43,534 nucleotides of DNA from a virus: IMG/VR virus record IMGVR_UViG_3300037042_002198, positions 1-43,534 of that record. One strand, written 5' to 3'. The notes under the pieces are model-generated. The model saw only the letters and a list, made by a program, of their open reading frames with translations. It had not been told where the DNA came from and did not search any database. Positions 1,349 to 25,763 of the stretch are shown here, piece by piece (position 1 is the stretch's first letter; the number at the start of each line of letters is the position of its first letter). Position numbers and translations under genes: made by a program.

Positions 1349-4300
1349 CTATCTACTAATTCTTGATTGAGATTGCATTTTAATACCAAGATCTTTAGCT
1401 AAGTCTGGAACAAACATAGGTAAGTATCCTGATAATTGATTTGATATAGGAAATTGTTTCATTAAATATTTGATTGGTTTAGCACTTTCCACCCATTCGT
1501 CATTCTGTAACACAAGTCCAAACATTTCTTCCATAAAATTTGATATAAGTTTTCCAAAGTTTGTAAGCAGTCCTATTGATGGAAATATACCACCACTTAT
1601 AATTGCTAATAAATTTGCAGGGTTGTAGAAATATGCAATCTCATCTCTAAGTTTATCAACAGCTCTCAACATAAACTTATATTGATTTTTAACTATTGGA
1701 TCTTCATCATCATCAGGAGCATTAGCTTTAAGTGCAAGAAAAAGACCAATTAATGATAAGAAGAACATTAGATCAAGCATTTGACTTTTAACATTTCTTC
1801 TTACAAGATCCATAAACTCAGACTCAGTCATATTAAGTGTCTTTTCTGTTTCTCTCTCATAGTCTGCTTTTTTCTTTTCCCACATCTCTCTCATGTATTC
1901 AACACCCTTTTCATTTCCTATAAGTGTGTTTCTCAATCTTTTTGCACTCTTAATAAGATCTAAAGAAAGCATACCATATACAGTTCTCATCCTACCCCAC
2001 TCATAAGCATCTGATGCAGAATTATATTTAAGATCACCATATCTAACATCTATAAGTCTAGGTATCCAACGTTTAAACATCATAAAAGAGCTTCCATAGA
2101 TGTTCATATCTATAAGTCTTCTACTCTCTTCTGTTGTATTACCAAGAGCATCCTTACTTAATTGTTGTATCTTTCTTCTAAGAGTAATAACACTTTCACT
2201 TTTTCTTTCAACACCTGGTATAACAAACTGATTATCAACTATTTCTCCTACCTTAAGAACACCTTTTTCTTCTGTAAGTTTTTTAACATCTTCTTCAAAC
2301 TTAGCTTCTCTAGCTTTTATTTGTTCTGTAGTTCCTTCGTAGAAGTTTACATACTCAGGAGTCTTTTTAAGAAACTCTCTAGCATTTACCACTTCACCAT
2401 TTTCCACTATAGAATTCTTTAAAAAAGAAAAGAAGTTAACTGTTTGAACATGTTTATCAGACTGTTTCATCATCCAGAGCAATGCATCTTGAATGTTTTC
2501 CTGGCTTAATGTATTTAATGAAAGTTTTTTAGCAAGTTCTCTATTATAATTTTCTGTTAATGGAAGAAAATATTCAAGAGCTCCTATTGCTTTCTTTTGA
2601 TAATCTTTGTTTCCAAGACCTATCATTTTACTATTTATCCAAGATTCTGTGGCTAAATAATCAGTTTTAGTGAAATACTTTCCTGAATTAATTATAGATT
2701 GAGCTGTACCACCAAATAAGTTTGATGTTGCAGAAAGAAGATTTAGTCCCATTACATTCATCTGAAACATCTTATTTAATACATCAATAGATTTATTCAA
2801 AGAAACAGTTCTTCCCTCTAGTCCTTCTGGAAATAGTTTAAATCCTATTTTTGCATTCACTTTTTCTCCAAGCTTACCGAATGTAGCAAGTGCCTGATCA
2901 AAATTATCATTCTGAAGATATTTCTGTCCATATACAATACCTTTCACCATGCTTTCTATAAGCTCAGCATTCTTACTATTATCTGGAGAAACATCTATTT
3001 TACCATTCTTATATTTTGTTCTAGAGAATATTGATGTAGCTATTGACTTTTTATTTCTTTCAACATTAACTAGTGCTAATGCTTGATATTCAATTTCAGA
3101 AAGATATTTAAACTTAATAGCCATCTCATTATATAAAGCCATGTTCTTGAAAAGATTTTCACTAGCCTCTTCCTGTAATTCTGTTATAAAATATTTAGGA
3201 ATAGTGTCAATTGGTCTTCCTGTGTGTGGATCTATTTTACCATATCCTACATCACCTTCAGATATTGATATAGATCTTAAAATCTGTTCTCCTACAGAAA
3301 TATTTCCACCCATTACAATCTTTTCAACAAGACTTTTTCTTATCCAAGGAAGGAATGTTCTATCTTCTCCTCTTCCTAAATATCCTATAGAGCGATAATA
3401 TTCATTTCTTTCTCTAATGTAATTATAAAAATCAAGAGCTGCCTGATTCTGTGGAGCATGTAACTCTTTCCATTCTGCTGTTTGCCATTTCTCTTTAGGA
3501 AACTTTTTAATAAGCTCATACTGATACCATCCAGCAGCAGTTGTTGTAGAGGTGTTGTACAACTTATCCACTTTATTTAGCTCATTATCCTTCTTTTGAT
3601 CATTCTCTTCAGACTGCTCTCTATCTTTATATTTTTCTATGATTCTTGTCTTTTCACTAGCAATCTCTTCTTTTAAGAAAGCATTGTATTCAGAAATGTT
3701 TATATTGTCCTTAACCCATTTAAAAAGATCTGGATCTTTACTATTTATTCTTTTCTGTAATTCCTTATAAAAGTCAGATTGAAATTCATCAATTAATTCA
3801 TTTGTTCCTTTCTTCTTAAGAATATTAAAATAGTTTTTGTTATTAAGTCCTTTACCTTTAGCCCATGCATTATATTTATCCTTAAGAGTTTGTAGTTTCT
3901 TACTCTGATCTACAGTGTCCTGAGCTGCAAACGTAATAGCTCTACTAGCTTTTCTAAATAAGATTTTTGCAGAGTTAAGTTGTATTGTTGTTGTTTCACT
4001 AAACCATCTAGCAAGACCACTGATTTTTTTCTCTTTTTGAATAACATCCTTCACATCTTCAGCCTTACCAATAAAATCTCTTACAAATGTTGTTTTTAAT
4101 GTATCTAATTTATTTTCTAATTTCCTAGCTATCTTCACTGTCTTATCAAGATCACTTTCTAATTCTGCATTTTTATTCTCCGAGAAAAGATCTGAAAGGT
4201 CAATATCTAATGTTGTATATGTATTAAGAGCTTTCTCAGCGTCTAATATTTCTTTTATAAAAGCATTTACATCATCTTCAGAAAAAGATTTTGGATCATT

Positions 4301-6343
4301 TCCTACCCAATTTTTCTCAAATCTTTCCATTAAATTCTCAATACTTGAGTTAAAAACTTTTGCTTGCTCCAATAAAGGTTTGAGGTTTTGCCTCATTTGT
4401 AATTGTCTGATAGCTGAAAATAAAGCATTTAATTGTTCAGCTTTATTCTTCTTTTCTGAAGGAAGAACAGTTTTTTCAGATAGTTTTTTATAATCAGCAT
4501 TTAGCCTTTTTAATAGAGCATCTACCTTATCATTTTCTGTTTTTTCTTCTTCTAGTCCTACAGGAACAAGATATGCATCTGTTATATCTTTAGGATCTAC
4601 AGCACCTATTTCTATTCCTAATAGTTTTGGAAGAATCCTTTGTTTAATATTTCCTTCAGAATAACTCACTTTAATAGGAATCATTCTTGTTTGGTCAAAC
4701 TGTTCCTCTTTAATACCATATGCATTAATCAACATTGTTTTATATTGATCCATTTGGTTTTTCCATGCAGCCACCTTGTACCAAGGAATATCTTCATAAG
4801 AATCAGATATAGCTATAAACTTCCAGTCAAGAAGATTTACTTTTCCTTTAGGAGTGATGGATATAAGATCTATTGTACCAGCTTTATTTGATTTAGGATC
4901 AAATATTTGCATCTCAGAAAGAAACACTGTTCCTTTATCAAATGATTTCAATCTTTTTAAAAGGTTTTCCTTAAGAGTTTCATATATATCTCTATCTGGA
5001 TCATTAGGATCCATTTGAGGAACATATCCTGAATCATCTAATATATCCTCATCAGCTCTCAATAGTCCATTCTCATCAACAAGAACACCACCTCTTCCAT
5101 CATTAAGTCCTCTTACCAAGTATTCAAAGTCAGCATGTCCTTTTGTTCCTTTTTCCATCTTAAGATCATCAACAGCTTTAGCTTCTTCGGTCTTAAGAAT
5201 CTCTCCACCATTAAATCTTCTTTTATACCAATCTTTAATTTCATCAGAGACCCTTCTAGCTATCTGTGTAATACCATCTAAGAAATAACGATCTTGTTTT
5301 TCTCCATCTATTAAGACTTCTTTCTTTGTAAGTCTAGAATCTATTTCTTTTATTTTATCAATAGCATCTTCTTGTTTGCTCTTTTGTAAAAACACTTTAC
5401 CCTCTTCAGCTCTAATATCTTCCACTGTACCTATTTCTTTTCCAGAGATAATGTCCATAGCAGCTCTATCAAAACCACTCTTCATAAACAATCCTTTAAA
5501 CCATTCCACCATAGAAGACCAAAAAGATTGTGTCTTAGCAAGAAGTTCTGGTTTCTCTGTACTTCCTTCATTTTGGTTAATGATTGTTTCCACTAATATC
5601 TTTGCTATAGCCTCTTCTTTAAGTTTTAAGATGTCTGGTTTACCATCCTTACCTTGATAGTTTGGATCAGATCCATAATCAGCTAACACTTGCTTATATA
5701 AAGCATAGTTGTTAATTTCCTTAAGAAGGGTTTTATAAAGACTTGGGTTTGTTTGTTTTATAATCTCAACAGCAAAGTGCATTGCTTCCTCAGAAAGACT
5801 CACACCTTCTGTTCCTTCAATCACTTGAATAAGATTTTGTATGATTAAAGCTGCACCATTTGCATCTTGCTTCTCACCATTTACAACAATGCTTTGCATT
5901 TGTTTAATGTCTACACCTATTCTCTTTACAAAATCCTTAACAAGAGCAAGTGTTTTAGGAGAAGATGTTGAACTTTCTGTTCCTTCCTTTTGAAAGAACT
6001 CACCACGTTGTTCCTCTGTATATCCACCTCTACGCATTTCTGCAAGTTGTTCCTTAGATAGGGGAAGGGTGATTTGTTTTGGTTCCTCAAGAGCAATCTG
6101 ATTAAACTTATCAAGATATTTTTGTGCAAGAGCATTAGAAGGATCAATTATAAAAGAACCTTTTTCAGATTCTTTTACAACTATTTCTTTATATTCTTTA
6201 TTAACAGAATCAATAGCTTTAGAAGCTTTGTTAGGATTTGTAAAATATCCTACATTATCTTCTATTGTAGCACCTTGATTAGATAACTTTTTAGTTACAT
6301 CATCTATTATATCTTTCTTAATATCTAATAAACATTTTGACAT
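1349..6343 (-). CDS. Giant virion-type protein with PD-(D/E)XK nuclease domain, 1664 aa
   Basis: Seen: residues ~395-600 carry the full RecB/Cas4-type nuclease signature: H403 (GHADFEYL), E477 (LSEMQIF), D492 (AGTIDLI), D506-W-K508 and Q530xxxY534. Upstream, residues ~180-290 look like a degenerate zincin-type domain (EEAMHF with H189, then KEEAIAKIL and FWSSMVEWFKGLF). Residues ~600-1000 are helical, Lys/Glu-rich and coiled-coil-like. A hydrophobic segment at ~1520-1540 is probably membrane-inserting. Known: RecB-type nucleases cut DNA ends. Inferred: following the RNA polymerase gene by one base, it is probably a co-packaged protein ejected into the host, where it may cut host DNA or process phage DNA. 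The start ATG at 6343 follows the upstream TAA (TAATATG). It ends with TAG. No close named homologue is recognised over the full length. Confidence 0.75.
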   Translation of the reverse strand: MSKCLLDIKKDIIDDVTKKLSNQGATIEDNVGYFTNPNKASKAIDSVNKEYKEIVVKESEKGSFIIDPSNALAQKYLDKFNQIALEEPKQITLPLSKEQLAEMRRGGYTEEQRGEFFQKEGTESSTSSPKTLALVKDFVKRIGVDIKQMQSIVVNGEKQDANGAALIIQNLIQVIEGTEGVSLSEEAMHFAVEIIKQTNPSLYKTLLKEINNYALYKQVLADYGSDPNYQGKDGKPDILKLKEEAIAKILVETIINQNEGSTEKPELLAKTQSFWSSMVEWFKGLFMKSGFDRAAMDIISGKEIGTVEDIRAEEGKVFLQKSKQEDAIDKIKEIDSRLTKKEVLIDGEKQDRYFLDGITQIARRVSDEIKDWYKRRFNGGEILKTEEAKAVDDLKMEKGTKGHADFEYLVRGLNDGRGGVLVDENGLLRADEDILDDSGYVPQMDPNDPDRDIYETLKENLLKRLKSFDKGTVFLSEMQIFDPKSNKAGTIDLISITPKGKVNLLDWKFIAISDSYEDIPWYKVAAWKNQMDQYKTMLINAYGIKEEQFDQTRMIPIKVSYSEGNIKQRILPKLLGIEIGAVDPKDITDAYLVPVGLEEEKTENDKVDALLKRLNADYKKLSEKTVLPSEKKNKAEQLNALFSAIRQLQMRQNLKPLLEQAKVFNSSIENLMERFEKNWVGNDPKSFSEDDVNAFIKEILDAEKALNTYTTLDIDLSDLFSENKNAELESDLDKTVKIARKLENKLDTLKTTFVRDFIGKAEDVKDVIQKEKKISGLARWFSETTTIQLNSAKILFRKASRAITFAAQDTVDQSKKLQTLKDKYNAWAKGKGLNNKNYFNILKKKGTNELIDEFQSDFYKELQKRINSKDPDLFKWVKDNINISEYNAFLKEEIASEKTRIIEKYKDREQSEENDQKKDNELNKVDKLYNTSTTTAAGWYQYELIKKFPKEKWQTAEWKELHAPQNQAALDFYNYIRERNEYYRSIGYLGRGEDRTFLPWIRKSLVEKIVMGGNISVGEQILRSISISEGDVGYGKIDPHTGRPIDTIPKYFITELQEEASENLFKNMALYNEMAIKFKYLSEIEYQALALVNVERNKKSIATSIFSRTKYKNGKIDVSPDNSKNAELIESMVKGIVYGQKYLQNDNFDQALATFGKLGEKVNAKIGFKLFPEGLEGRTVSLNKSIDVLNKMFQMNVMGLNLLSATSNLFGGTAQSIINSGKYFTKTDYLATESWINSKMIGLGNKDYQKKAIGALEYFLPLTENYNRELAKKLSLNTLSQENIQDALLWMMKQSDKHVQTVNFFSFLKNSIVENGEVVNAREFLKKTPEYVNFYEGTTEQIKAREAKFEEDVKKLTEEKGVLKVGEIVDNQFVIPGVERKSESVITLRRKIQQLSKDALGNTTEESRRLIDMNIYGSSFMMFKRWIPRLIDVRYGDLKYNSASDAYEWGRMRTVYGMLSLDLIKSAKRLRNTLIGNEKGVEYMREMWEKKKADYERETEKTLNMTESEFMDLVRRNVKSQMLDLMFFLSLIGLFLALKANAPDDDEDPIVKNQYKFMLRAVDKLRDEIAYFYNPANLLAIISGGIFPSIGLLTNFGKLISNFMEEMFGLVLQNDEWVESAKPIKYLMKQFPISNQLSGYLPMFVPDLAKDLGIKMQSQSRISR

Positions 6344-6344
6344 A

Positions 6345-9300
6345 TTATCCGCAATTATTTTGGTTATTGTTATCTATTGATGGTAATCCTTCTGGTGCAA
6401 TCTTGGTAAGAAGAGCATCATTAATATCTGTCTTTTTAGAATCAGCTAATACTTTTCTTATATTCTTTTCTTTAAATATTCTTTCCACTTCTTCTTTTAT
6501 TGCCTTTTGAGTGTCACTTATAGTTGATATTGAAAATCCTGTAGAAAGTTCAAATACATCATTTGTATCTTGTTCCATCATTAAATTAATATCTTCAAAT
6601 CCAGGAATAACTATCTTCTTACCATATCTTTCTGCAAATGTTCCACTAGCAATATTTGAATAAAATTTAGAAAATCCTTTCTTAACTCTTTCAGGGGTAA
6701 ATCTTTTATCAATAACTTTTTGTTTTCCATTTATCTCAACCACTTCATACTCTCCAGGTTCTAGATTAGATTTATAAATAATATCTTGTACTCCTTCTTT
6801 AACACTAGTAGATGGTTGAGTAGGTTGTAAAGGTACAACATTTTCTAATTCTTTTTCTATTGTTGCTATAATAGGATCTGCTACATCTAGAGGAACTATC
6901 TCTCCTCCATAAAAATCAACAATATCTTGATCTGGTATTTCATTAGACACTAATGTACCCTCTACATTTCTTACATTCTTTTGTGAACCATTGTTAAAAA
7001 TAGAAGGTCTTCCATCACCATAATATTCTGATGCATACATTCCATCACCATGTAAATTGATAAACTTATATACATATATAGGATTACCATCTCTATCATA
7101 GCTAGCTATTAATGGAGATCCATCAGCATATTTCACCTTTTGATATCCATAATAGTTTCTAAGAGATGTATCTCCTTTCTTAATCTTTTCAGCATAAGTT
7201 TGATTGGTAATTTCCATTCCATTAGCAACATCTATTTTTCCTTCCTCAACTTTTTTCTTATTAATAGAAATAGCTCTAGGCATTTTAATTACATCATAAT
7301 TTGAAACTTTAGCATCATATTTTGTATTAATGAATAATAAATGTCTTTTTTGTGAATTCACTCCAAGAGCTTGTATTGTTGGGAATGGACCAGGAACTCT
7401 TATTGCTACATTATTAATTTTTCCTATCACTTTAAATAATCCTTGGAATTTTCTAGGAAGATCATATTCTGATTCTGAACGATATTCTTCTGCAAACCTA
7501 GGTTCTATAATAGGAACAACATCATTATCTTGCCATTCATTTCTTTGGAACTCATTACTTGTAGCAAATGCTCTGATGTCATCATCCACTCTCAATCCTG
7601 CAATAATAGGAGTGATGTGTTTAGCATAATCTTCTACAGGAATAATATTCTTTATAGAAATAGGAGATTGATATGTTCCTTGTAAAATAGCAAGTCTTAC
7701 TATTCCTTTATATAACTCATTTGTATCAGGATTATCTCTAAGCTCTCTCATCATGCCTGTATACATATTCTCTGTATAAGCAATCTTATCATTCACTTTA
7801 AGTTTGATGGTTTGTGCACCACCAATTCTTCCTGAGCTATCCACTTCAAGATCTTCTAAGATTTGTACTCCTGGGTATTCTTTCTTAGCTTTTACAAGCA
7901 TTTGTGCTACAGATTCTTTATCATCAGTTAATTGTTCTTGAAGATTTGTAGCTATATCAGATCTCTTCTGTATAATATAATCTAAGAAAGAAGCTTTAAT
8001 TTTATTAGCTATTCTGTCAAACTTATCTTTACTTAAGAATTTATCTTGCTCGTATGCTTTCAACACATCATTTGTAACATCTGTAAACTGTAAAGTTTCT
8101 AATACAAGAGCTTCTCCCATAGCGTCCATACTACTATCAAGATATTCTGCCTCAACACCTATAAAGTTATTTTCTAATAGTTCTCCTACAGAAGAAATGA
8201 TGTTTTTCTCTTGTGCAGCTTCTGTTCTCCATTGTTTTAATTGTAAAGAATCTCCACTTTGAAACTTAGTGGTATCATAATTAGTAGCTTGTGTAAAACT
8301 AAAATTATATTCAGCCATCTTAGCATATTTCAAAAATTCATTGAATATTGCCATTTGTTCACGGTTCTTAGCATCACCAAGACTTCCTGTAGAATAATAG
8401 TTTTTAATATTAGCTTCTAATTCATCTTTGTTAAACCCAAGAGTACTAGCTTTTTCTGGAACTGTTGAAGGAAACATTGGTTCAACCTTAGAAATATATC
8501 TAGAATCAAATAAGGTTTTAATACCATTGTTATCAAGTAGTGTTAAATACTCATCAATGATGGGTTGGTTCATAAACATTACAAGCTGCTCCTTAGAAAC
8601 ACCCACTCTTCTTAAGAACATGAATGTACTTACAGCAAGATCACTTTTTATTATCTTAAGAATATAAGGATTTTTTGCCACATCCACGAAAGAAGTTGCG
8701 AATCCAGAGAGTCCATCAGATATAAATTTACCAACAGAATCAAGCCTACCAGAAAGGGAAATATAACTTTTACCATCTTTTTCAAGAGTATTATGATCCA
8801 ATAATATTTCTCCATTTCCATATTCTAATATTTTTCTATCTTCTGCAGAAACACTACTAAATCTAGCTGGATCAATATATGTTTTACTTTTTTGTGTAAG
8901 TGAATGTCCTGTAATATTAACAGCAGCAATACCTATCCATCTCTTAGCTGTAATAAAAGCATGTCTAAGAGAAGTCATATAGTTTCTATCAAGAAGCCTA
9001 TTCTTAATCTTGTTCTCATCATATCCTCTAAGTGTATCAAGTCTATTAGCTATTTCTTTAAGACCATCATCACTTACAGGAGATATTAATCTTTGGAAGT
9101 TCTCTGGCATTGTTACAAGGTTTTCCAAAGAATCATAATATTCATTCTCAAGAGCACGTCTGTAAGAATCTTCTACAAACTTCTCTTTAAGGAGTGCTTG
9201 TAAATCTTCATTACCAAGTTCTTCAAGCTTCTTCATAATGTCATCTAATACATCTATTTGTTCATCTAATGTATTAGCTTCTGCAAATAAAATATCTAAT

Positions 9301-12300
9301 TTATCTGCATATCTATCAACAAGATTTTTAGCATCATCTAGATCTTTCACTAATATTGTAGCTGCCTCAAAAAATTCAGCTTTGTTTATTTTCTTATTCT
9401 CAAGGGTTTCATCAAATACTCTACCATAGAAATCTTTTGTAGCTTCTTCTGTTCCTTTTAATTTTATAATTTTGATTTCACCATTCTTATCAATATATAT
9501 AGATTTAAGATACATGTTCAATTTATCTATATCAAAGTCACTTCCTGCTTTTGTAGTGATCTCTGAAGGAACAATCACTGTTTTACCCATGTATTGAGGA
9601 AGAAAACTTTTTACTTTAAATGCCTCAACTGAAGAAAGGGATTGTGTAGGAATACGGAAACCTATTCCAGATAGCAATTCTTTTCCTTCTTTTGTAGTGT
9701 TAAGAAACTTTATAAGCTCTTCATCAGTTTTAGATGCATGTTTACCAAGTTTACTTTTAAACCAATGAGGAAGCATTATTTCACAATAGCGTTTACCATC
9801 AGCATCTTCATAAAACTTAAGTGTGTCATCTGTAAGAACCACTTTCTTTTGTTCCTCTGGAGAAAGACCATCAAACTCTTGTTTTGTGATTTGCTTATAC
9901 CCATCTTCTGTTTTAATTGCTATCTTTCTTCCAGCTTTAGCATTTTCCCATAATGTAACAGGAGCCTGTACATAAGAACCACCATTCATTTTAGGAGATG
10001 TAATTTCTTTGTCTATAAAGGAATAAAGAATACTCTTAATCTGAAGATATGCAGGGGATGCTTCAAAAGGAATTATAAACTCTCCATTCTCATCAAGTTG
10101 TATTGAATCTTTAACATTATCAGAAAGCTCTCTTCTAAACATTTCATCTTGTAATGTTTTAGCAAGTCTTCTTTTATCTGGTATTTTATATGAACCACCA
10201 AGATCTTCAATACCAAGTCTTTTTAAGAACCTTTCATAACCATTTCTATGAAGATCATTTAATATTTCTCTATTTCTAGCCACCTCTTTTGCTATCTCTT
10301 CTCTTCTTTCAGGAGTTGCACCAATAGGTTCACCATTCTCATAAAGATCTAATGTAGAAAGTTTTGTAATCTGTGACCCTCTTGGTTGCATTCCAGATCC
10401 TTCATACGCATTTTCCACTTGAATACCATAAGCCTTCCAAGGAACTTCTATATTATTATTAAAAGCAGCATCGTTGAATTCACCATTCTTTTTATAAAGA
10501 TCATGCAAAGCCTCAGCTCCCACCTTTCTACCAGAAATCATAATGATGTATCCCTTTTTCTCTTTCATCATTTGTAAGTATAGTTTTTCAAGGTTTTTTC
10601 CTTTCACCATACTATAATATAAAGGCATTTGAGAAAACTTATCTAGTACAAGTTTTATTGTGTTACTACCATTAGTTACACCAGATACAATAGGTTTAAT
10701 CACCTCAATCTTGTAATTAGGTTCTTTAGTCTTTAGAAGAGCAACATCATGTTTCTCAAGAGCTTTACCTCTAGCATCATTTGAATATGTAAATACAGAT
10801 GCAGGAACATTTTGTCTTGTATAAGCCATTTGCCATTGATGCCAAGCTTCTTCAACACCTTTAATATTCCATTGACCATTCTTAATTTTTAATTCTCTAT
10901 ATGTACCATCCATCATTATAGAGGATGCATCACCTTCATTTGTTTTAGCAAAGGCATCTCTTATATCTGTAGGAACATTTTGCATATTAGCAATACTTCC
11001 TGCAACAATAACATCATTTACAGTCACTGTATCCATCCATGATTTAGCCTCATGATATCCAGGTTCTTCAGGTAGTAGTTGCACATCTCCTGCCTTATTC
11101 ATATCCTTATTGAGAAATGTGTTTAACTCAGGACTATCAATTGTTGTTCTTCTTGGAGAGAGGAATGATTTAAACCTCTTAGTTGCATCAAGAGTTCCAT
11201 CTTCCTTAATAGCAAATTGATAAGGATCTCCAAATATAATCTTGTGAAACTCTATGTTATTAATTATATAGTTTGCGTTTACAAAAGTTATAATGTTTGT
11301 AACATCATCTTTTGTAAGGTTATTCTTATCAAGTTTTTCCTGTGTAGCAAAATTAATGTCTAACATAGTATACCTGTAATACTGTATATCAGTCTTTTGG
11401 TCTTTATTACCAACAGTCACTTGATTATTCTGTGTTAAAAAATCTAAAGTTTTTGTAACAGTACCATCTATATACTCTTTTATAGAAGCATTTACATCAT
11501 CAATATTATCATCTATAAAACTCTCAATATCTGCTTGTGCATTATTTTGCTTAATCATTTTATTGATCTCAGATAATGTTTTTTCAGAAAGAATATCTTT
11601 AAAGAAACGAAGTTCATAAGGTTTTTTCTTTAAAGCTTCTAAATCAGCAGTTAGTTTCTTAACTTCTTCTTTTTGACGATCTGATTTATTAGTTACAGAT
11701 TTTAAAGTTTCTAGTTTAGATTCTATTTCAGCAATTTTACGTAAACCACCAACATTCTCTACTTGTATTCTATTATCAGCATCTAAAGCTAACGCAACAT
11801 CATCTGTTAAATATCCTCTGAATATCTCATTAATCTTCTTCCAACCATCTTTGCCTTGTTCAATATCCTCAAAGGCAACATGATTTCCCATATTCATCAT
11901 CCATTCTGTAGAACCATCTGCAGGAATCATGATGTAATATTGACCATTAATATTTTGATTAATCTCTTGTGTATATCTATCACCTTCTGTAAGAGATGTA
12001 GAACTAGTTCCTTTGTTATTATCTTTATTTTTTGTACCCTCAATATATCCCACTTTTAAGTTAAGCTCAGTTCTCTTTCCTTCTTTATCAAAGAATTGTC
12101 CTCCTTTCTTAAGAAGTAACGCTCCTCTTGAATAAAGATCATTAAGCTCTGGTCTAATTGTTAAAAGCTCTTCTAATGTACCCACTTCATTAAATTCATT
12201 CTCAAACACAGAAGGAACATTATTATCAGAAAATGAATTAGATTGTTTACCTTCAAGATTAATTCTTGTATTTTCTAAAGTAGGATGTGTTACATTTACA

Positions 12301-15300
12301 AGTAGTTCAGCAAGAGTGTTATATTGACCAGCAACATCTAATGTACTTTTCTTTATATTCATTATCTCTTTACTCTTCTGCAAATATGTTTTGATGTTAT
12401 TTACAGCATTAGTAAACTCTATTTGTTGTGGTCCTTTAAGTTTTTTCCAAGCATCTATAGGAAATATAACACCAAGTTTAGATAGAAAAGTTATCTTCTC
12501 TTGAGGATTATTTGTAGGTATTCCAGATAGATCAGTGATTGAATAAGTTCCTGTACTTTTATCAAGAGTAATGTAAGACCCTTCTTGTTTTGCAAGACTT
12601 ATCATGTTCTGTATCCAACCTCTTGTTGTTTTTTCTACAATTCCTGTAACCATGGCAGAACCTGAATACACTTGTCCTTGATCTATATATTGTACAATAG
12701 CATTAGGTTTTTGCTTAGTGTATGTTTGCATAAACTCAATGAAAAATCTCCAGTCTTCAAATTTAAACTTTGTAAAGTTAATGATCTTTTCCATTTTGTT
12801 TTCTGCATTAGTAGAATAAAATCCACCTAGTCTCTGGAACATAGATACATAGTTTGCATCTTCATTACCAAGCTTTACAACCTTATTAACAAGTTTTCCT
12901 ATTGATGTAGTATTTTTAAATGCATCAAGCATTGTACTAAATGCTCTTGTATAAGAAAGTAGAGAGAAAGTTTGAAACTTTTCATTTACCTTAGGTGTAG
13001 GAAGACTGAATAAATTACTATCTTCTTGGTTTGTTGGAACTCTATCAAGAAGTGTAGCTGTTGCAAACTTAATACCCCTAGGAGCACTCTTTTTATAATC
13101 TACAGAGAACGGTACTCTAACATAATCATTCTTGTTTGTTTCTGCTTCATTTATATTTACAAGATCATCCTCATTAAAGTCAACTTTCATAAGTGTCTTT
13201 AATTCTTGTTTTGTTTTAACTACAAGATCTTTCCAAGCTATATCACCCAACTCTTCTCTAAGACTAATATTATTAGAAGAAATTTGTTTTGCATAAAACT
13301 CGTCAATCATGTTGAATACATCATCACTTGTAAGAGTTCTAAGATTGTATAACGCAGACTTATCTATTGTTCCCATCTTACCACTTCCAAATATAATATT
13401 AGAAGAAATTGCCATCATATCTTTAACATAAGCATTTGTTTGCTCTTCTGTTAAATGTCCAGCAGCTCTATATTGAGGAGGCATTGATTTTGATTCAGTG
13501 GATAGTTGTCTATCTTTAAACTCACCTGTTTCAATTGCTTTAAATAATTCTGTCTTAAGAGAAGGTTTTGCTATAAAGGATTTTACAAAATCTAATATTC
13601 TTCTAAAGAAATTAAGAACAGCTTCTCCTAAAGATCTAGCAGGAAGTTTACCAAGTCTGAAATCAGAAAAATCATCTAATATTCTTTCCTTCACCATGTT
13701 ATCACTCACTGTAGGATCATCATAGTTAAACTTCTTATTAGTTTCTCTATCTAAAAATTGTCCAGGCTTATTTCTAAACTCAGCAATTAATGCTACTCTT
13801 TCATCTTTTGTTAGCATACCATTCCAAATACCTTCGCCTATCTCATGGTATTCTGTAGCTCTAAGTCCACCTTTAACAAATTTAGCTACACCTTTCTCAA
13901 ACACACCCCAAGCTTTCTCTTTGCTATTAATATTAATCATGTTCTCCAAAATCTCAAAAGGAATAAATGGAACATTCTTAGCATGCCATTCTTTAAATGC
14001 TTTAAGATCAGCTTCTGTCATTCTATTCTTCCTGTCCATAGCACCCACTTTTCTAAATCCAACATCATCTCTCTTTCCTATATTATTAGGATTGAATGAT
14101 CCTGGTTCTTTAGGAGCTTCAACTTGACCACCTTCTAAAGCACCTAGTTCTGCATCATATTTAAGATTTGTTATAAATTTCTCACTTTCTAAGTTCCATA
14201 ATCCTCCTGCTGGTGCAGTAATATCATCTCCTGTTAACTGAAATTCTCCTGTTTCTGAATCAGAATCATTAACAACTGTAGCCTCAATAAAATCACTTTG
14301 AATTAATATTTTATCACTTCCTTTTTGTGACCACAGATTTGGGTAATCTTTCAATAATTCTTCTTCTCTACTTTCCTTAAGTACCCAAACTTTATCTCCT
14401 TTTTTTAATCCAATTTTAATATCAAATCTTTTTACATCTTCTTGTCTTCTTCTTTTTATATCAGCTTCAATAAGTTGTCTATGTGTTTTGTTTTCAGGAT
14501 TATCAAGTTTTTTACCTTCAAAATAAACTCCATCAGCTTTTACTTCATAATTTGTATTACCTACTTTACCTATTGGTACATCAGCTTTAGCATCTGTAGA
14601 AACAGGAGTTGTAGTTAATTCAGGGCCTTTGGGAATAGCATTTCCTTGAGCATCAGTAAATAATTCTGTTGGTGTAAATACACCTTGTGTAACTATAGGA
14701 ATGTTTTTGCCAGCTTGAATAGCTGCAGAGTTTCCAACCAATTTAATTCTAGGTATTGATACAACATCTGGAGCAACTGGAGCAATTACATCTGTTTCTA
14801 ATTCCTTTTTAACAAAAGCAAGAATAGCACCGTTTGCTTCAAGAATTAATTCTTCTTCAGGAAGAACAGCTTCTCCTTTCTTAATTCTGTTATCATTTAA
14901 TTTCTTAATGATTTTATCTCTTGTAAATATGAATGTATCATCTGTTTTATCAAACTTAGGATTTTCTCCTTCCTTTATAGTGAATATAACATCACCAAAT
15001 GGTGTTGTAAATATATTATCTGTTTCACCATCATAGTCATACTTTCTCTCTGTTTTTACAGGAGCTGCTACAACTGTTTCAGCTTTTGCAGGTTTAGCTA
15101 TTATACCAACAGGAAGTTCTAGTCCTATTAATGTAGAATATTTCTGCTCATGTGTTGTAGGAACTGCAGGAGTGGGTTTTATAATTTTTGTAGAAAGAGG
15201 TGTATCTTCTACACTTCTTGAAGAACCATTAGGATATGTAGAAGATAGAAGATAGGTTTGATAGTTTTTCCATTCATTGTTAACTAATTCTCCATCCTTC

Positions 15301-18300
15301 ATATAATATTCTGTGAAAGGTTTGCTGAAGTTTTCAGCAGAGAGTGTTTTATTATTTACATTATAGAAAGAGTTTTCTAAAGCTTCTATTATTTCATCTT
15401 TTCTTTCAGATATATCAGGAATAGAATATGTTTTTCCTGCTAGAGAAATAGAATTTCCATCTTCAGAGATGTTTATTTGATTAGAACCAAGTTCTGTTTT
15501 TCCTTGTCTCCAATATAAAACATTTTGTAAAAACCTAGATAGTTTCTTATTTATAATAACTCTCTTTCCAGCTTTAGATTGCTCATTTATTTCTGTAGCC
15601 ATCTGTTTGATAACTTCATAAATCCCTTGTGCTTGTTTCTTTGTGAATTTTCTATTGTTTAAAAATTCAACATTATCGTTATGCACAAGCATAGGTCTAC
15701 CATTAGGAACATTGATTTGTCCTGTATGGTGTGCTATAATACCTGCTGTAGGAATTTTAATTAATGTTTGATCTGTAGCAAGTATTTTAGCTTCATTTTT
15801 TTCATCAATAAGAACACCTGCTACATGATTGTCTACATCTCCTTTTTTAGCAATACCTCTAGACACTTGAAATCCATAAGGTGTTGGTGATTCACTTGGC
15901 TCTATTTCAAATATTTTTGCTCTTTGTATTTTCCAAGCAGCAGCATATGCTTCAGCTTCCTCTTTTTGATCTTTTCTATATCTTGGTGTTACACCGTCTC
16001 TATAAAAAAGACTTGTTGTACGCATTGTTTGGAAAATAACATCACTCAAATTTTCCACTTGCACCCCAACCTCACCTATTTGATTACCATTCTTATCTAC
16101 AAAGAATAACTTATCACCCACTTGTTCTACAAACACTTGAGCAATAAAACCAGTATCAACATTATCTAAATCAGTGATTTCAGAAAGAGTTTTGTTATAT
16201 GATATTTCTATAAGTCCTTCTAGTCCATAAGCTTTTACAAGTTTAGAAGTGACAAGAATAGCTCTCATGTTCTTTCTATTCTTCATTCCTCCAACATTAT
16301 TTAAGAACTCTCTTTGGTTCCTAATATGTATTGCTGCTTGTTTTGGATCTAATACATTTCCATTTTCATCAACATTATATCCTTCAGCTTCAGACATTGA
16401 TGTTCCAGATATAAACAATATGCTGGCAGTTGGAATCTTTCCTTCAGGTGCAACTTTATCTTTAGCAGGATCATTTGTTCCTACAGTACCAGAATCAAGA
16501 ACTATTTCTCCTTGTTGTTTTAGAATATCTTCTTTATCTTTTTCTAGTTTTTCTTGGTCAGTTTTTATTCTTTCATATCCTGTAAGTTTAGTAAGCTCTA
16601 TGTTTTGAATATTACCAGCAAGATCTTCCACTTTTACTGTACCATCAAGATTAAGAGCTATTATCTTTACTTTAGAAAGATCAGCAAAATCTTGGTTTAA
16701 TTCATCAGCAGCATCTTTAGCTTTCTCTTCTGTAGAATAAAATGTAATATCTCCATTAGAAGCTGTAAGCTGCCACCTATCATCAGAAATCTTACTTACC
16801 TTAGCCAACTTTGTTTGAGGAACTTGATACTCTTTGTTTAACTCAAGAGTTTCTTTATCACCAGATCTATTAGTAAACTTATGTATAGGAGTTACAATCT
16901 CTGTTTCTTGTGTTTTTGTAGTGGTCTCAGTTTTTATTTCAGGAGCTTCTTCAGAAGCTATATCTTTTGCTTGTTCAAAGTATTTATTAAAACCAGTTTC
17001 TGAACTAAGATTGTCAAATATATCAGATGCTCTTTGTTTTAATAAATTATTTTTATTTATATCTATGCCATATTTGAATAGTTCAGAAACACTTTCATTT
17101 GGAACAACTTTATCTTTAGTTGCATTTCTGCTATTAAGTTCAAAGTTTAAAACATCTTCAAAAGTTTTTATATTAAAATCTTGACTGTTTATATTAAGAT
17201 TTATTTTTTCAGATAAAGTGCGTAAAGCTTTTACTTGATTTTTAATCTTCCTTTTATCTTCAGAAGAAGTATATTCAGTGATAGAATTAGATAATTGATT
17301 AGCTTGTTCTTCATATATTTTACTATATTCTTTTAATGATTCTTTTTTAGTAAGATCTCCAAGTAGATTATTATTAAGTAGAGGATTTATATTAGTAATA
17401 TTTTCTTCTATAGATACTAATCTATCTTTTACTTCTGGAGAAATATTAGCATAGCGAGCAAGATCTGTTTTCCAACTATTGAATGTATGATAGTTAAATG
17501 TTTCAATAGTTTCATCACCAGGTTTAGGATTTACTATATTTGTAAATGGATTGTTAAATGTATTATTTATAGAATCTACTGTTTTCTTAATACCATTTGC
17601 TTTATTTACTAAAGAATCAACATATGTATCAACTGTTTTTTTATTTGATGTATTAAAATTCATTCCAAAAGTCTTTTCAAAATCTTCTTTAGAAAGATCT
17701 TTTAACATATTCAATTGTTCAATTGTAACTTCATGCATTTCAGAAGAAATGCGTGAGTTTACAAAATTAAAGAACATATCATTCTTTAGATTTTTATACT
17801 TATATACATCTCCACTTTTTGCAGCTTCATCCATTTCTTTAGCAATTCCTGACGAGTTAAGTGTATCTATATATTTATCTTGTAATATTCCTGTTAAACC
17901 ATATTGATTTAATGAATTAATGCTTTGTTGTAACATAGCTTCTTTACCTTGTCCTTTAATAGACTGCACCTTGCCTAACAAGCCACCAGTTACAATAGCA
18001 GAAATAGCACCAACAATCATATTAGTTATACCCTCTGTAGTGTTAAATTGATCAGAAAGGCCTTTAGTAGTAGAGTTAATCACCTCATGTAAAGAATCCC
18101 AATTATTTACATTTTCTTTTCTCTTAGGATCTTTATACTTTCTAGTGTAATAGTCATATGTTCCTCTTTCAGCAGCATACTGTCCACCTTCTTCATACAC
18201 ACCTTCAGTGAAGATATTTGGTATTTTTGGTTTAATAGATTCCCAAACCTTTCCTGGAAGTCCCTTAGCAACTTTCTTTTCAAATACATCTAAAGATCCT

Positions 18301-19496
18301 TCAACAAGACCTATTTTACCAGAACCTTCTATTTGTTTAGTAAGACTACTTTTAAACCCTGTACTTGCAGATGTAAATGATTTAAATAAATTATCAAACT
18401 GAATAGCATTACTCACTGTAAGAATAGCCATATTTATACCAAATCTGGTATTCATAGCATTTGTAGCATAATTTTCTATTTCTTTAAGATTAGCTCCTTC
18501 AGGTTCTGCACCAAGATTCTCAAGTTTATAATGATTAACAAGCTCATCATACACTTGTCTATATCCATCTCTAGCTTCTACACCAGCTTCTGTTCTTGAA
18601 GCTCCGTATAAATTAAGTCCATATCTAAATCCATTAAGTGTTTTTATACCAGCAGCAGCCTCTCCTATATTCTTAATAGTGAGAAGTCTTGCCTCTGTTT
18701 TAGATAATGTTTTTGCAAGATTAAGAACTTCTTCAAGTCTATTTGTTCCTGTAAATATTTTATTTAACCATAAAGAAGCTTTACCAATTTGAGAAGCAAG
18801 AAGTGGAATTTCACCAAGTCCTCCTGTAACAAATCCTATAGCAGCATCTTGTACCAATGCTCCACTAATAGCACCTACTGTAAACCCTATATTTTTTATA
18901 ATACTATTACCCCAGAAATTAGCACTTCCTGCAAATCCAGGTATTATTGCTAAATAAGGATGTTCCTTTTCTCTTTTAGTAATATAGTTTGGAAAAGAAT
19001 CTTCATAATTCTTTATCCAATTATCTATAGAACCTTCATACCCATCAGGACCACCAGTGAGTGCTTTAGTACCACTCTTTAAACTAGCCACTGTATTAGG
19101 AATTGTAGCAAAACTTTGAGCAAAGGTTCCAACTGCTGTAGCTCCCATTTTAACTACACCATTAGCAAGTTGAGACATCCATCCTTGTTGTAAGCCATAA
19201 GTGTTTTCAAGATCTATACCTCTATTATACATACCATACCTCTTATTACTAAGAAGTTCACTTTTTGGAATCATCTGTACAGGACCATCCCATGAGTTAG
19301 AATCTCTAACACTTGTAAGCTTTGACATATCATCAAGACTTAATCCTGTTTTAGTAGAACCAGCTGATCCATAACTTTCAAACCCACCTAAATTAGGATT
19401 TACTGTTCTTGTTACAGGAGATCCAAGATCTGTACGAAGAGGTTCGTAGTTCCTATCAGAAACATTGTCTATAAGTTCTTTGTCAAAAATTGGCAT
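6345..19496 (-). CDS. Giant polyprotein with virion RNA polymerase core, 4383 aa
   Basis: Seen: residues 3281-3324 read RIPT, ~30 residues, then GSDFDIDKLN (D3320, D3322, D3324). This parallels the beta-prime core of RNA polymerases (RQPT ... NADFDGDQM), with Ile in place of the usual Gly. About 350 residues earlier, a segment around K2948 and ISGRKVGAE (~2989) sits where the beta-like double-psi barrel with catalytic lysines is expected. H1884-E-I-G-E is a zincin-like HExxE site, followed by KERILDDFSDF and FFRRILDFVKSFI. Hydrophobic stretches lie at ~120-150, ~195-230 and ~490-510. Known: crAss-like phages carry such an RNA polymerase in the virion to transcribe early genes. Inferred: this is that enzyme in a fused, possibly proteolytically matured polyprotein. 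ATG overlaps the upstream stop as TAATG; C-terminal residues are Asn-rich. Length is unusually large even for phage giants. Confidence 0.82.
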   Translation of the reverse strand: MPIFDKELIDNVSDRNYEPLRTDLGSPVTRTVNPNLGGFESYGSAGSTKTGLSLDDMSKLTSVRDSNSWDGPVQMIPKSELLSNKRYGMYNRGIDLENTYGLQQGWMSQLANGVVKMGATAVGTFAQSFATIPNTVASLKSGTKALTGGPDGYEGSIDNWIKNYEDSFPNYITKREKEHPYLAIIPGFAGSANFWGNSIIKNIGFTVGAISGALVQDAAIGFVTGGLGEIPLLASQIGKASLWLNKIFTGTNRLEEVLNLAKTLSKTEARLLTIKNIGEAAAGIKTLNGFRYGLNLYGASRTEAGVEARDGYRQVYDELVNHYKLENLGAEPEGANLKEIENYATNAMNTRFGINMAILTVSNAIQFDNLFKSFTSASTGFKSSLTKQIEGSGKIGLVEGSLDVFEKKVAKGLPGKVWESIKPKIPNIFTEGVYEEGGQYAAERGTYDYYTRKYKDPKRKENVNNWDSLHEVINSTTKGLSDQFNTTEGITNMIVGAISAIVTGGLLGKVQSIKGQGKEAMLQQSINSLNQYGLTGILQDKYIDTLNSSGIAKEMDEAAKSGDVYKYKNLKNDMFFNFVNSRISSEMHEVTIEQLNMLKDLSKEDFEKTFGMNFNTSNKKTVDTYVDSLVNKANGIKKTVDSINNTFNNPFTNIVNPKPGDETIETFNYHTFNSWKTDLARYANISPEVKDRLVSIEENITNINPLLNNNLLGDLTKKESLKEYSKIYEEQANQLSNSITEYTSSEDKRKIKNQVKALRTLSEKINLNINSQDFNIKTFEDVLNFELNSRNATKDKVVPNESVSELFKYGIDINKNNLLKQRASDIFDNLSSETGFNKYFEQAKDIASEEAPEIKTETTTKTQETEIVTPIHKFTNRSGDKETLELNKEYQVPQTKLAKVSKISDDRWQLTASNGDITFYSTEEKAKDAADELNQDFADLSKVKIIALNLDGTVKVEDLAGNIQNIELTKLTGYERIKTDQEKLEKDKEDILKQQGEIVLDSGTVGTNDPAKDKVAPEGKIPTASILFISGTSMSEAEGYNVDENGNVLDPKQAAIHIRNQREFLNNVGGMKNRKNMRAILVTSKLVKAYGLEGLIEISYNKTLSEITDLDNVDTGFIAQVFVEQVGDKLFFVDKNGNQIGEVGVQVENLSDVIFQTMRTTSLFYRDGVTPRYRKDQKEEAEAYAAAWKIQRAKIFEIEPSESPTPYGFQVSRGIAKKGDVDNHVAGVLIDEKNEAKILATDQTLIKIPTAGIIAHHTGQINVPNGRPMLVHNDNVEFLNNRKFTKKQAQGIYEVIKQMATEINEQSKAGKRVIINKKLSRFLQNVLYWRQGKTELGSNQINISEDGNSISLAGKTYSIPDISERKDEIIEALENSFYNVNNKTLSAENFSKPFTEYYMKDGELVNNEWKNYQTYLLSSTYPNGSSRSVEDTPLSTKIIKPTPAVPTTHEQKYSTLIGLELPVGIIAKPAKAETVVAAPVKTERKYDYDGETDNIFTTPFGDVIFTIKEGENPKFDKTDDTFIFTRDKIIKKLNDNRIKKGEAVLPEEELILEANGAILAFVKKELETDVIAPVAPDVVSIPRIKLVGNSAAIQAGKNIPIVTQGVFTPTELFTDAQGNAIPKGPELTTTPVSTDAKADVPIGKVGNTNYEVKADGVYFEGKKLDNPENKTHRQLIEADIKRRRQEDVKRFDIKIGLKKGDKVWVLKESREEELLKDYPNLWSQKGSDKILIQSDFIEATVVNDSDSETGEFQLTGDDITAPAGGLWNLESEKFITNLKYDAELGALEGGQVEAPKEPGSFNPNNIGKRDDVGFRKVGAMDRKNRMTEADLKAFKEWHAKNVPFIPFEILENMININSKEKAWGVFEKGVAKFVKGGLRATEYHEIGEGIWNGMLTKDERVALIAEFRNKPGQFLDRETNKKFNYDDPTVSDNMVKERILDDFSDFRLGKLPARSLGEAVLNFFRRILDFVKSFIAKPSLKTELFKAIETGEFKDRQLSTESKSMPPQYRAAGHLTEEQTNAYVKDMMAISSNIIFGSGKMGTIDKSALYNLRTLTSDDVFNMIDEFYAKQISSNNISLREELGDIAWKDLVVKTKQELKTLMKVDFNEDDLVNINEAETNKNDYVRVPFSVDYKKSAPRGIKFATATLLDRVPTNQEDSNLFSLPTPKVNEKFQTFSLLSYTRAFSTMLDAFKNTTSIGKLVNKVVKLGNEDANYVSMFQRLGGFYSTNAENKMEKIINFTKFKFEDWRFFIEFMQTYTKQKPNAIVQYIDQGQVYSGSAMVTGIVEKTTRGWIQNMISLAKQEGSYITLDKSTGTYSITDLSGIPTNNPQEKITFLSKLGVIFPIDAWKKLKGPQQIEFTNAVNNIKTYLQKSKEIMNIKKSTLDVAGQYNTLAELLVNVTHPTLENTRINLEGKQSNSFSDNNVPSVFENEFNEVGTLEELLTIRPELNDLYSRGALLLKKGGQFFDKEGKRTELNLKVGYIEGTKNKDNNKGTSSTSLTEGDRYTQEINQNINGQYYIMIPADGSTEWMMNMGNHVAFEDIEQGKDGWKKINEIFRGYLTDDVALALDADNRIQVENVGGLRKIAEIESKLETLKSVTNKSDRQKEEVKKLTADLEALKKKPYELRFFKDILSEKTLSEINKMIKQNNAQADIESFIDDNIDDVNASIKEYIDGTVTKTLDFLTQNNQVTVGNKDQKTDIQYYRYTMLDINFATQEKLDKNNLTKDDVTNIITFVNANYIINNIEFHKIIFGDPYQFAIKEDGTLDATKRFKSFLSPRRTTIDSPELNTFLNKDMNKAGDVQLLPEEPGYHEAKSWMDTVTVNDVIVAGSIANMQNVPTDIRDAFAKTNEGDASSIMMDGTYRELKIKNGQWNIKGVEEAWHQWQMAYTRQNVPASVFTYSNDARGKALEKHDVALLKTKEPNYKIEVIKPIVSGVTNGSNTIKLVLDKFSQMPLYYSMVKGKNLEKLYLQMMKEKKGYIIMISGRKVGAEALHDLYKKNGEFNDAAFNNNIEVPWKAYGIQVENAYEGSGMQPRGSQITKLSTLDLYENGEPIGATPERREEIAKEVARNREILNDLHRNGYERFLKRLGIEDLGGSYKIPDKRRLAKTLQDEMFRRELSDNVKDSIQLDENGEFIIPFEASPAYLQIKSILYSFIDKEITSPKMNGGSYVQAPVTLWENAKAGRKIAIKTEDGYKQITKQEFDGLSPEEQKKVVLTDDTLKFYEDADGKRYCEIMLPHWFKSKLGKHASKTDEELIKFLNTTKEGKELLSGIGFRIPTQSLSSVEAFKVKSFLPQYMGKTVIVPSEITTKAGSDFDIDKLNMYLKSIYIDKNGEIKIIKLKGTEEATKDFYGRVFDETLENKKINKAEFFEAATILVKDLDDAKNLVDRYADKLDILFAEANTLDEQIDVLDDIMKKLEELGNEDLQALLKEKFVEDSYRRALENEYYDSLENLVTMPENFQRLISPVSDDGLKEIANRLDTLRGYDENKIKNRLLDRNYMTSLRHAFITAKRWIGIAAVNITGHSLTQKSKTYIDPARFSSVSAEDRKILEYGNGEILLDHNTLEKDGKSYISLSGRLDSVGKFISDGLSGFATSFVDVAKNPYILKIIKSDLAVSTFMFLRRVGVSKEQLVMFMNQPIIDEYLTLLDNNGIKTLFDSRYISKVEPMFPSTVPEKASTLGFNKDELEANIKNYYSTGSLGDAKNREQMAIFNEFLKYAKMAEYNFSFTQATNYDTTKFQSGDSLQLKQWRTEAAQEKNIISSVGELLENNFIGVEAEYLDSSMDAMGEALVLETLQFTDVTNDVLKAYEQDKFLSKDKFDRIANKIKASFLDYIIQKRSDIATNLQEQLTDDKESVAQMLVKAKKEYPGVQILEDLEVDSSGRIGGAQTIKLKVNDKIAYTENMYTGMMRELRDNPDTNELYKGIVRLAILQGTYQSPISIKNIIPVEDYAKHITPIIAGLRVDDDIRAFATSNEFQRNEWQDNDVVPIIEPRFAEEYRSESEYDLPRKFQGLFKVIGKINNVAIRVPGPFPTIQALGVNSQKRHLLFINTKYDAKVSNYDVIKMPRAISINKKKVEEGKIDVANGMEITNQTYAEKIKKGDTSLRNYYGYQKVKYADGSPLIASYDRDGNPIYVYKFINLHGDGMYASEYYGDGRPSIFNNGSQKNVRNVEGTLVSNEIPDQDIVDFYGGEIVPLDVADPIIATIEKELENVVPLQPTQPSTSVKEGVQDIIYKSNLEPGEYEVVEINGKQKVIDKRFTPERVKKGFSKFYSNIASGTFAERYGKKIVIPGFEDINLMMEQDTNDVFELSTGFSISTISDTQKAIKEEVERIFKEKNIRKVLADSKKTDINDALLTKIAPEGLPSIDNNNQNNCG

Positions 19497-22177
19497 TAGT
19501 TATTCTTTTTTAAAAAATCATTAATAGTTTGTGTTCCTATATTTTCAAAAATTTTCTGAGCACCAGTAAGTGATACAAAACCTTTTTCATTTAAAACTCC
19601 CATAACCCATGGAGTATTTACATATGGTTGTACATACATTTTCACTTGAAAAACATCATTTGGACCACCATCATTACGATCATCACCCTCTACATCCACT
19701 CTTACATTATTTGCAAACTTTGTATTTCTCAAAAGAGGAATGTCAGATCCAGTGAATCTAGAACTCACTGCTCCTGTAGCATCTGTTAATGCTAATAAGT
19801 TTGTTGTTTTATTTGGAGAAGAACTAATTGTATATTTAATATCATCCCATGGATTAACAACTGCTACATCAGAAAAATGTCTTTGTAATTCACCAGCATT
19901 TATAGGAATTCTTTGAGTGAGTCCACCTCCACCATTTAATACAAGTTCTGCACTACCATCATATTTTTTAACGATTGTATACTTTGCGTTAGGATCTTTT
20001 TGAATTTTTTCTAAATCTGACTTACTAAAGTCCGAAGACTTATTTACATCTAGTCCACCATGTGATTCATATTGAATAAGTTTATTACCTATAAGACCAT
20101 TAACCATTTCTTTTGTATCAGCATTAGACATATTTAATGTACCTATCTTTGTTTGTCTTTCAGGCATATTTTTAGTTAAATAGTCAGATTCTGCAGTTAA
20201 CTTTTTCTTTACAAGATCTGATGCAATTGATGAATATTTTTGATTTATATTCACTGTATTATTATATATTACATTCTCTGTTGGTGTAAGTTGTTGACCA
20301 TAATACTTTTTAACATATGCTTTTGCAATAGGTTCATATTTACCTCCTCTATATTTATCTAGAAATCCTTTAGTATCAAATGTTGTAACACCTCCACCAA
20401 ATCCACCAGTTCCACCACTAAAAGAGGTTGTAGTTTTAAAACTTGTTGCTACATTTGAAACCAAAAATAATTCTTTAGGTGTATATAAAACTGAACCATT
20501 GCTAGTTGTTATAGGAGTTTCATTTGCTAAAGATTGATCAAGTTGTTCATCATATTGTTTAGAAGATTTACTAGCACCATCTCTTAAGTTTATAAGTCTG
20601 TATGATTCAACCTCTAAACTTTTTCTTTGTTCTAAATACTTTCTCATCTTATTATCATTATCATTAATAGATGTAGGATTTTCAGAATACTTTTTATATA
20701 AATCATTAAGATATTGTGATTTCTGAGTGGGTGTCATTTTATCTCCACCAGGAATATTAGGAGCATAACTACTATTTAACTCATCAATTTGTCCTGCTTG
20801 AATAAGGTTTCCTTTAGCATCTCTTTGTCCAATTATAGCTGTTATATCTCCATCTATCTTTGATAATGAAGGAACATCTACATCTGTAGGAAGAGCACCT
20901 GGATCTATAGCGGTGTATATTTTCTTTAATCTTTCTGCTTCTTTTTGTGATTGCTCAATAGTCCATTTCTGAACATCCCATTTATGAGAGATTTTCCATT
21001 CACTATGTTGTAAATTAGCATTCCAATATTTATATTGTATATCTTGTTTCTTCATATCCGCCTCAAAATATGGACTGTTTAATATCTCCATCTTCTTACT
21101 TTCATCTGCCATATCTTGAGCCATAGTGGTAAGATGTTTCTGAGTGTATAGTTTATATTTATAATCAGTGAGGTCAGTGATATTATTAATACCTGATAAG
21201 CTAGTGTTTAATTCTTTCTCAAGACTACCATCAGTAAGTTTTTTATTTATATTAGTTAACTTAGTTTGAAGTTCTGCTTTTTCAGCTATATTTAATTTAG
21301 AATTTGTTTTAAGTTCAAGAGCAATATCAACTGCAGCATCTGATAAAATCTTTTTATTAATATTATAAGTTTTAGTGATATCATTTTTAAATGTATCTTT
21401 TGTAGCTCCTCTATAATGATACCAACCATCAATTTTTAATTGTTGTTGATCATTTGGTGTAAGATTATTATAGAAGTTATTAAGTAGTTTCTCAGCAGAT
21501 CTTCCTTTAACTGATATACGTAACATTACATCATCAATCTTTTTTACTCCTTTTGAAGGATCTAAAGAAGCATTACCTTGCGTATCATAATAAAGAACAT
21601 TTCCTTCATAATTTCTTTTATATGGAATATCAATTGAACCATCTGCACCATGTACTTTCTCTGCTATATCTCTTAACTTTGCATCAATATCTGTATAATT
21701 AATATATTCCTCTGTAAAAACTGCTCCTGCATTAGGATCTTGAAACCAAGCGTTAGCTTCTGCATTAAACCATTTTTCATTTTGCACACCTGACTTTCCT
21801 TCTTTTTTAGCTTTTTCCATTATAGCTTGTTGTTTTCTTAACCATGCAGTAGAACCAACAGCAGTTTGTACAATCTTATCATTACCAATTTGCTTAACCA
21901 TCCCTCCAACAGAATTAACCAATTGAAAATTAGAAAAATCACCAGCAGCTACAGTGGTGAGATTACCTCCTAATTGATTAAGTTTAGATTTAAGATAGGC
22001 TTTATCCACATCTTTGTAAATATCCAATCCAGCCACTTGATCAATCTGTCCTTGAATTTTTTGCACACCTTTGTCGTACTGATCTTGTTTGATCATACCC
22101 ACCTTTACCATTTCTTCAACAGGGAGCTGTTGAATATATGGATTGAACTGCATTGGTTTATCTGTAAAACTTGCCAT
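19496..22177 (-). CDS. Virion-type cargo/structural protein, 893 aa
   Basis: I recognise the N-terminal pattern (QLPVEEMVKVGMIKQDQYD, then a long helical KIQGQIDQVAGLDIYKD stretch to about residue 75) as typical of a conserved late protein of crAss-like and related Bacteroidetes phages; no enzymatic motif is visible. The remainder is largely helical and Lys/Asn-rich, with a Gly-rich patch around residues 575-590 and a beta-rich C-terminal ~150 residues (PWDDIKYTIS, VRVDVEGDDR). It is the first gene after its own promoter and overlaps the RNA polymerase gene as TAATG, so the two are probably translated in step. Inferred role: capsid- or tail-internal cargo packaged beside the RNA polymerase. 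Family recall is from memory, not a search. Confidence 0.6.
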   Translation of the reverse strand: MASFTDKPMQFNPYIQQLPVEEMVKVGMIKQDQYDKGVQKIQGQIDQVAGLDIYKDVDKAYLKSKLNQLGGNLTTVAAGDFSNFQLVNSVGGMVKQIGNDKIVQTAVGSTAWLRKQQAIMEKAKKEGKSGVQNEKWFNAEANAWFQDPNAGAVFTEEYINYTDIDAKLRDIAEKVHGADGSIDIPYKRNYEGNVLYYDTQGNASLDPSKGVKKIDDVMLRISVKGRSAEKLLNNFYNNLTPNDQQQLKIDGWYHYRGATKDTFKNDITKTYNINKKILSDAAVDIALELKTNSKLNIAEKAELQTKLTNINKKLTDGSLEKELNTSLSGINNITDLTDYKYKLYTQKHLTTMAQDMADESKKMEILNSPYFEADMKKQDIQYKYWNANLQHSEWKISHKWDVQKWTIEQSQKEAERLKKIYTAIDPGALPTDVDVPSLSKIDGDITAIIGQRDAKGNLIQAGQIDELNSSYAPNIPGGDKMTPTQKSQYLNDLYKKYSENPTSINDNDNKMRKYLEQRKSLEVESYRLINLRDGASKSSKQYDEQLDQSLANETPITTSNGSVLYTPKELFLVSNVATSFKTTTSFSGGTGGFGGGVTTFDTKGFLDKYRGGKYEPIAKAYVKKYYGQQLTPTENVIYNNTVNINQKYSSIASDLVKKKLTAESDYLTKNMPERQTKIGTLNMSNADTKEMVNGLIGNKLIQYESHGGLDVNKSSDFSKSDLEKIQKDPNAKYTIVKKYDGSAELVLNGGGGLTQRIPINAGELQRHFSDVAVVNPWDDIKYTISSSPNKTTNLLALTDATGAVSSRFTGSDIPLLRNTKFANNVRVDVEGDDRNDGGPNDVFQVKMYVQPYVNTPWVMGVLNEKGFVSLTGAQKIFENIGTQTINDFLKKNN

Positions 22178-22192
22178 AGTATATTAAGTTAG

Positions 22193-22246: not shown

Positions 22247-22264
22247 TTATTATAATTGAATTGG

Positions 22265-25762: not shown

Positions 25763-25763
25763 A

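Follow-up and report, generated by a model that had tools for sequence, protein, structure and literature searches.

The structure and activity of gp66 of Cellulophaga phage phi14:2 (Crassvirales, Steigviridae; PDB 6VR4) have been published (PMC7886860; review PMC10136315). In crAss001, the genes are ordered muzzle-cargo-polymerase (PMC10172136). In P23-45, gp96 has a DFDGD motif and forms a fusion with a tape measure protein (PMC10770324). Chitinophaga sp. YR573 has been listed as crAss-related (review PMC10136315).

The window analyzed here is the whole stretch of viral DNA, 43,534 bases in length, in which the polymerase open reading frame (ORF) lies within a block of minus-strand genes (Table 1). 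The ORF starts with ATG and encodes 4383 aa, with zero internal stops. Its C-terminal half almost certainly contains the catalytic core of a single-chain, two-barrel, DNA-dependent virion RNA polymerase of the phi14:2 gp66 family, preceded by a gp67-like cargo module at the N terminus. Direct support comes from homology to gp66, whose structure is solved, from conservation at the active site, from the predicted fold, and from a crAss-like gene neighborhood. Packaging, ejection with the DNA, early-gene transcription, and enzymatic activity of the 4383-aa protein we infer by analogy with phi14:2 and crAss001. The enzyme type was already known; the window adds an environmental branch to a characterized polymerase family.

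Table 1. Features of the polymerase locus, with positions in the window.
Feature	Position	Strand	Basis
Giant virion protein, cargo module fused to two-barrel RNA polymerase	6345..19496	-	One uninterrupted ORF and domain homologies
N-terminal cargo module, residues ~52-946	16659..19343	-	Profile matches to gp67 and Lbo-JY46 protein
RNA polymerase catalytic region, residues 2720-3900	7797..11339	-	hmmsearch, AlphaFold2, Foldseek
Strand-rich beta-like segment, probable first double-psi barrel, residues 2934-3038	10383..10697	-	DSSP strands in model and invariant lysines
RIPT, residues 3281-3284	9645..9656	-	Read in translation; RIP conserved
DFDID metal-binding motif of beta'-like barrel, residues 3320-3324	9525..9539	-	Sequence, relatives, profile
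Probable bridge helix, residues 3504-3535	8892..8987	-	32-residue helix in model and invariance
1664-aa RNA polymerase-associated virion protein	1349..6343	-	blastp homologue of crAss001 gp49 and cr108_1 protein
Four virion/cargo genes (893, 1165, 585, 288 aa) between muzzle and polymerase	19496..28387	-	Collinear with Chitinophaga and Lbo-JY46 loci
crAss muzzle (tail tip) protein	28387..33354	-	Pfam crAss_MUZ PF25731, E = 3.5e-35

Annotated phages were searched with the polymerase region using tblastn, resulting in 142 records in total. These included phi14:2 gp66, annotated as 'Catalytic RNA polymerase subunit' (E = 3e-18), the crAss001 'putative RNA polymerase' (E = 1e-15), cr108_1 (E = 3e-25), and Flavobacterium phage Fpv1 (E = 3e-8). 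Scans with Pfam and PHROGs and a single-sequence search of the PDB gave no polymerase match; a match in the PDB required a profile of 37 members, taken from a 37-sequence alignment of the region. Following hmmsearch with this profile against all PDB sequences, the sole match was 6vr4_A (phi14:2 gp66; E = 2.9e-67), with profile positions 9-994 aligned to chain residues 855-1804 and DFDID placed on DFDID. The same 37-sequence alignment was used as input for AlphaFold2, and the catalytic region was modeled with a pLDDT of 83.7 and a pTM of 0.83. In a Foldseek search of the PDB with this model, 6vr4_A ranked first (E = 3.1e-32, probability 1.00), followed by weak matches only, to the RNAi polymerase RDR2, P23-45 gp96, bacterial beta', and the AR9/phiKZ polymerases. 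In the Foldseek viral library, 55 matches were obtained at E ≤ 0.001, mostly crAss-like. Comparison with 6VR4 gave a whole-core TM-score of 0.62 (on query) and an rmsd of 9.7, so that the domain arrangement matches only roughly. The single chain of 6VR4 has two double-psi beta barrels, and the match points to both in the predicted model as well. The earlier note had called this region a virion RNA polymerase core and had named gp66 of the crAss-like phage phi14:2 for structural comparison; sequence, profile, predicted fold, and gene neighborhood all back the assignment to a crAss-like virion RNA polymerase, with both phage polymerase homology and a fold match to 6VR4 found.

Cellular enzymes carry Gly at the fourth position of the catalytic motif. 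P23-45 gp96 does so too (PMC10770324). The Ile in DFDID had been noted as an oddity that might define a clade, and one reading would be a functionally distinct or clade-defining active site. IMG/VR was scanned with the residues encoded by 9000-11000, resulting in 72 loci, and DFDID was present in 71/71 loci reaching the motif, a slightly biased count, as the motif is included in one of the six peptides used as queries; no such bias affects the homology searches of annotated phages. A distinct active site of this kind is nevertheless very unlikely, since the active enzyme phi14:2 gp66 itself carries DFDID, as read directly from the phage genome, and since Ile and Val both occur within Steigviridae and within Intestiviridae. 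DFDID was found in phi14:2 gp66 and DAC15 (Steigviridae) and in Rudgehvirus (Intestiviridae); DFDVD in crAss001 and cr128_1 (Steigviridae), CrAssphage LMMB (Intestiviridae), cr55_1, cr7_1, and cr6_1 (Suoliviridae), and Dulem virus 41; and DYDID in Flavobacterium phage Fpv1. Because Ile and Val co-occur in one family, Ile is not a clade marker, and this proposal was rejected. Judged from their sequences, Ile or Val is the rule among the crAss-like enzymes inspected, which corrects the notion that Ile in DxDxD is unusual in crAss-like virion polymerases.

Two further features at or near this motif were observed in other phages. In the polymerase of cr6_1 (L078), an in-frame TAG comes just after the conserved R-I-P-T; it would fit the recoding of amber to Gln that has been published for other crAss-like phages. 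In cr108_1 (L075:13346-13664), the catalytic DxDxD codons are split by a group I intron (80 bits to Rfam RF00028) that is preceded by G-S-D and followed by (Y)-D-I-D-K; for Zeta phages, interruptions inside the DxDxD motif have been published (PMC7886860).

Upstream of the motif, the beta-like segment proposed in the earlier note was recovered as a strand-rich part of the model, whereas its candidate catalytic residue K2948 had to be discarded: Lys occurs at this position in just 4/37 aligned sequences, most having Asp. By contrast, K2934, K2953, and K2991 are Lys in 37/37, and an alignment that includes phi14:2, crAss001, Dulem virus 41, and Fpv1 likewise shows all three as invariant. Downstream, residues 3504-3535 are the probable bridge helix by analogy with two-barrel polymerases; G3522 and A3525 are invariant among the relatives. 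The beta-like barrel would come first and the beta'-like barrel second, followed by the bridge helix, and D3320, D3322, and D3324 of the beta'-like barrel would bind the catalytic Mg2+. An even smaller probability than to a distinct Ile site is given to a degenerate core, retained in the virion cargo protein as a structural remnant of a polymerase. Some relatives may do without the catalytic part, as Leptolyngbya phage Lbo-JY46 has the cargo module and no detectable polymerase in the corresponding genes; in the relatives of the window, however, all metal-binding Asp residues and the three Lys residues are invariant even at 23-27% identity, and the reading frame is unbroken.

The motif D-x-D-x-D occurs once in the 4383-aa protein, as DFDID, and ~1.2 occurrences per protein would arise from shuffling at the same composition; at this chance level the motif alone is not evidence for a polymerase. 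R-x-P-T followed 25-50 residues on by D-[FY]-D-x-D was obtained in 0/2000 shuffles. RIPT at 3281-3284 and DFDID from D3320 had both been read earlier, and the reading holds in the translated ORF: R-I-P at 3281-3283 and D3320, F3321, D3322, I3323, D3324, and K3325 are invariant in 37/37 aligned relatives. That an unrelated structural protein carries the motif by chance, for which the expected count and the empty Pfam, PHROGs, and single-sequence PDB searches could speak, is ruled out for practical purposes by the profile and fold matches to 6VR4 and by the total conservation of the motif.

The polymerase core forms one part of a modular protein. Residues ~52-946 are related to part of phi14:2 gp67 (profile E = 7.4e-10; hhalign probability 96.7) and to a 1552-aa protein of Lbo-JY46 (profile E = 1.5e-76), residues ~1560-2440 to cr108_1, residues 2720-3673 to gp66, and the C-terminus to a cr108_1 protein. 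On these sequence relationships, the 4383-aa protein joins a gp67-like cargo module to a gp66-like core; its giant size thus reflects gene fusion, variants of which are seen across crAss-like phages. By analogy with phi14:2 and crAss001, the protein would be capsid cargo that is ejected with the DNA, would cross the tail partly unfolded, and would refold in the host (PMC10172136, PMC10136315). On the same analogy, it may then transcribe early genes before the host polymerase takes over. A polymerase of the gp66 family would be found in virions, and its transcription of early genes would resist rifampicin; in the window, the neighboring genes encode virion proteins.

The order muzzle-cargo-polymerase in the window is that of crAss001. 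For the adjoining 1664-aa protein, blastp gave cr108_22608 (E = 1.5e-29) and crAss001 gp49 (E = 7e-4). Inside the structural block, at 35555-36805, a DNA repair exonuclease-like gene was found (PHROG 704, E = 3.7e-45), the Lbo-JY46 counterpart of which is 25% identical. In the window, an Rfam scan matched no family and no tRNA was found.

The nearest large contig (G001; 113,975 bases) shows ~85% DNA identity to the window over parts of the polymerase region. It encodes Crass_capsid, a P22-like portal, terminase, and a DNA polymerase, which together with the muzzle in the window indicates a crAss-like genome. In related genomes, the terminase was not found with the Pfam Terminase_6N model and was found with PHROGs. 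The contig also carries a ribonucleotide reductase gene with an intein and similarity to HNH endonucleases (L085:6876-9665). In a terminase tree, the terminase groups with those of Chitinophaga YR573, Spirosoma oryzae, Lbo-JY46, and the Epsilon phages (100/100 support), apart from Steigviridae and Suoliviridae and not inside a named Crassvirales family; the tree has long branches, its rooting is not shown, and of the named families it samples Steigviridae, Suoliviridae, and, with one sequence on a very long branch, Intestiviridae. The window comes from an environmental lineage of crAss-like phages that lies close to Chitinophaga sp. YR573, to the Epsilon phages, and to a Leptolyngbya phage. 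The collinear Chitinophaga YR573 element suggests a Bacteroidota host, with the Leptolyngbya relative calling for caution. In Spirosoma oryzae DSM 28354 (L146, L150), a terminase relative and the region with the polymerase motif appear to share one contig, possibly a second crAss-like element in a Bacteroidota isolate.

The cyanobacterial phage Lbo-JY46 has a crAss-like terminase (39%), capsid, muzzle-region relatives, and the N-terminal cargo module (L086:2355-15261, L109). In its giant proteins at these loci, no DxDxD core and no polymerase similarity were found. The 2748-aa protein in the polymerase position starts, by eye, with an acetyltransferase-like stretch. Stretches of 49 kb in Lbo-JY46 and of 49.5 kb in the Epsilon phages phi17:2 and csAssE-Sib were searched with the profile, and no polymerase was found. 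As an HHpred match has been published for crAssE-Sib (PMC11054128), a polymerase may be present there. We tentatively consider, as a possibility somewhat short of even, that the window represents an unnamed crAss-like lineage of family rank from the environment, in which the virion polymerase stays fused and active, while it was lost or replaced in the terminase sister groups (Epsilon phages and the Leptolyngbya cyanophage). In that case, an ancestral crAss-like virion would have contained the polymerase as a part that can be lost; the related loci make such loss testable in the Epsilon and Leptolyngbya phage lineages.

Among known systems, P23-45 gp96 and the RNAi polymerases RDR2/QDE-1 have the two-barrel fold class and DxDxD in common with the window core, gp96 and RDR2 being weak fold matches to the model (E 0.02-0.1). 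Polymerases of the same family are crAss001 gp50/gp49 and the CrAssphage LMMB 'RNAP catalytic subunit/RNAP subunit fusion protein', the latter also fused; both differ from the window by DFDVD and by belonging to a named Crassvirales family. The phi14:2 gp66 core is alike over ~950 residues, including DFDID, the preceding R-I-P, and the invariant lysines, and phi14:2 has the same gene order, with the polymerase adjoining an RNAP-associated protein. Identity to gp66 is ~24%, and gp67 (1797 aa, cargo-like) and gp66 (2180 aa) are encoded by separate genes, whereas the window encodes one chain. In the Chitinophaga sp. YR573 element, which lies in an isolate chromosome (contig 3692732-3764263; L126, L149), the genome is collinear and the polymerase core is 38% identical to that of the window; capsid, portal, and terminase are 61%, 51%, and 40% identical to those of G001, the nearest full genome. 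There, the RNAP-associated protein (33.7% identity over 1595 columns) is also fused to the polymerase, resulting in a protein of 5485 aa, while in the window it is encoded by a separate gene.
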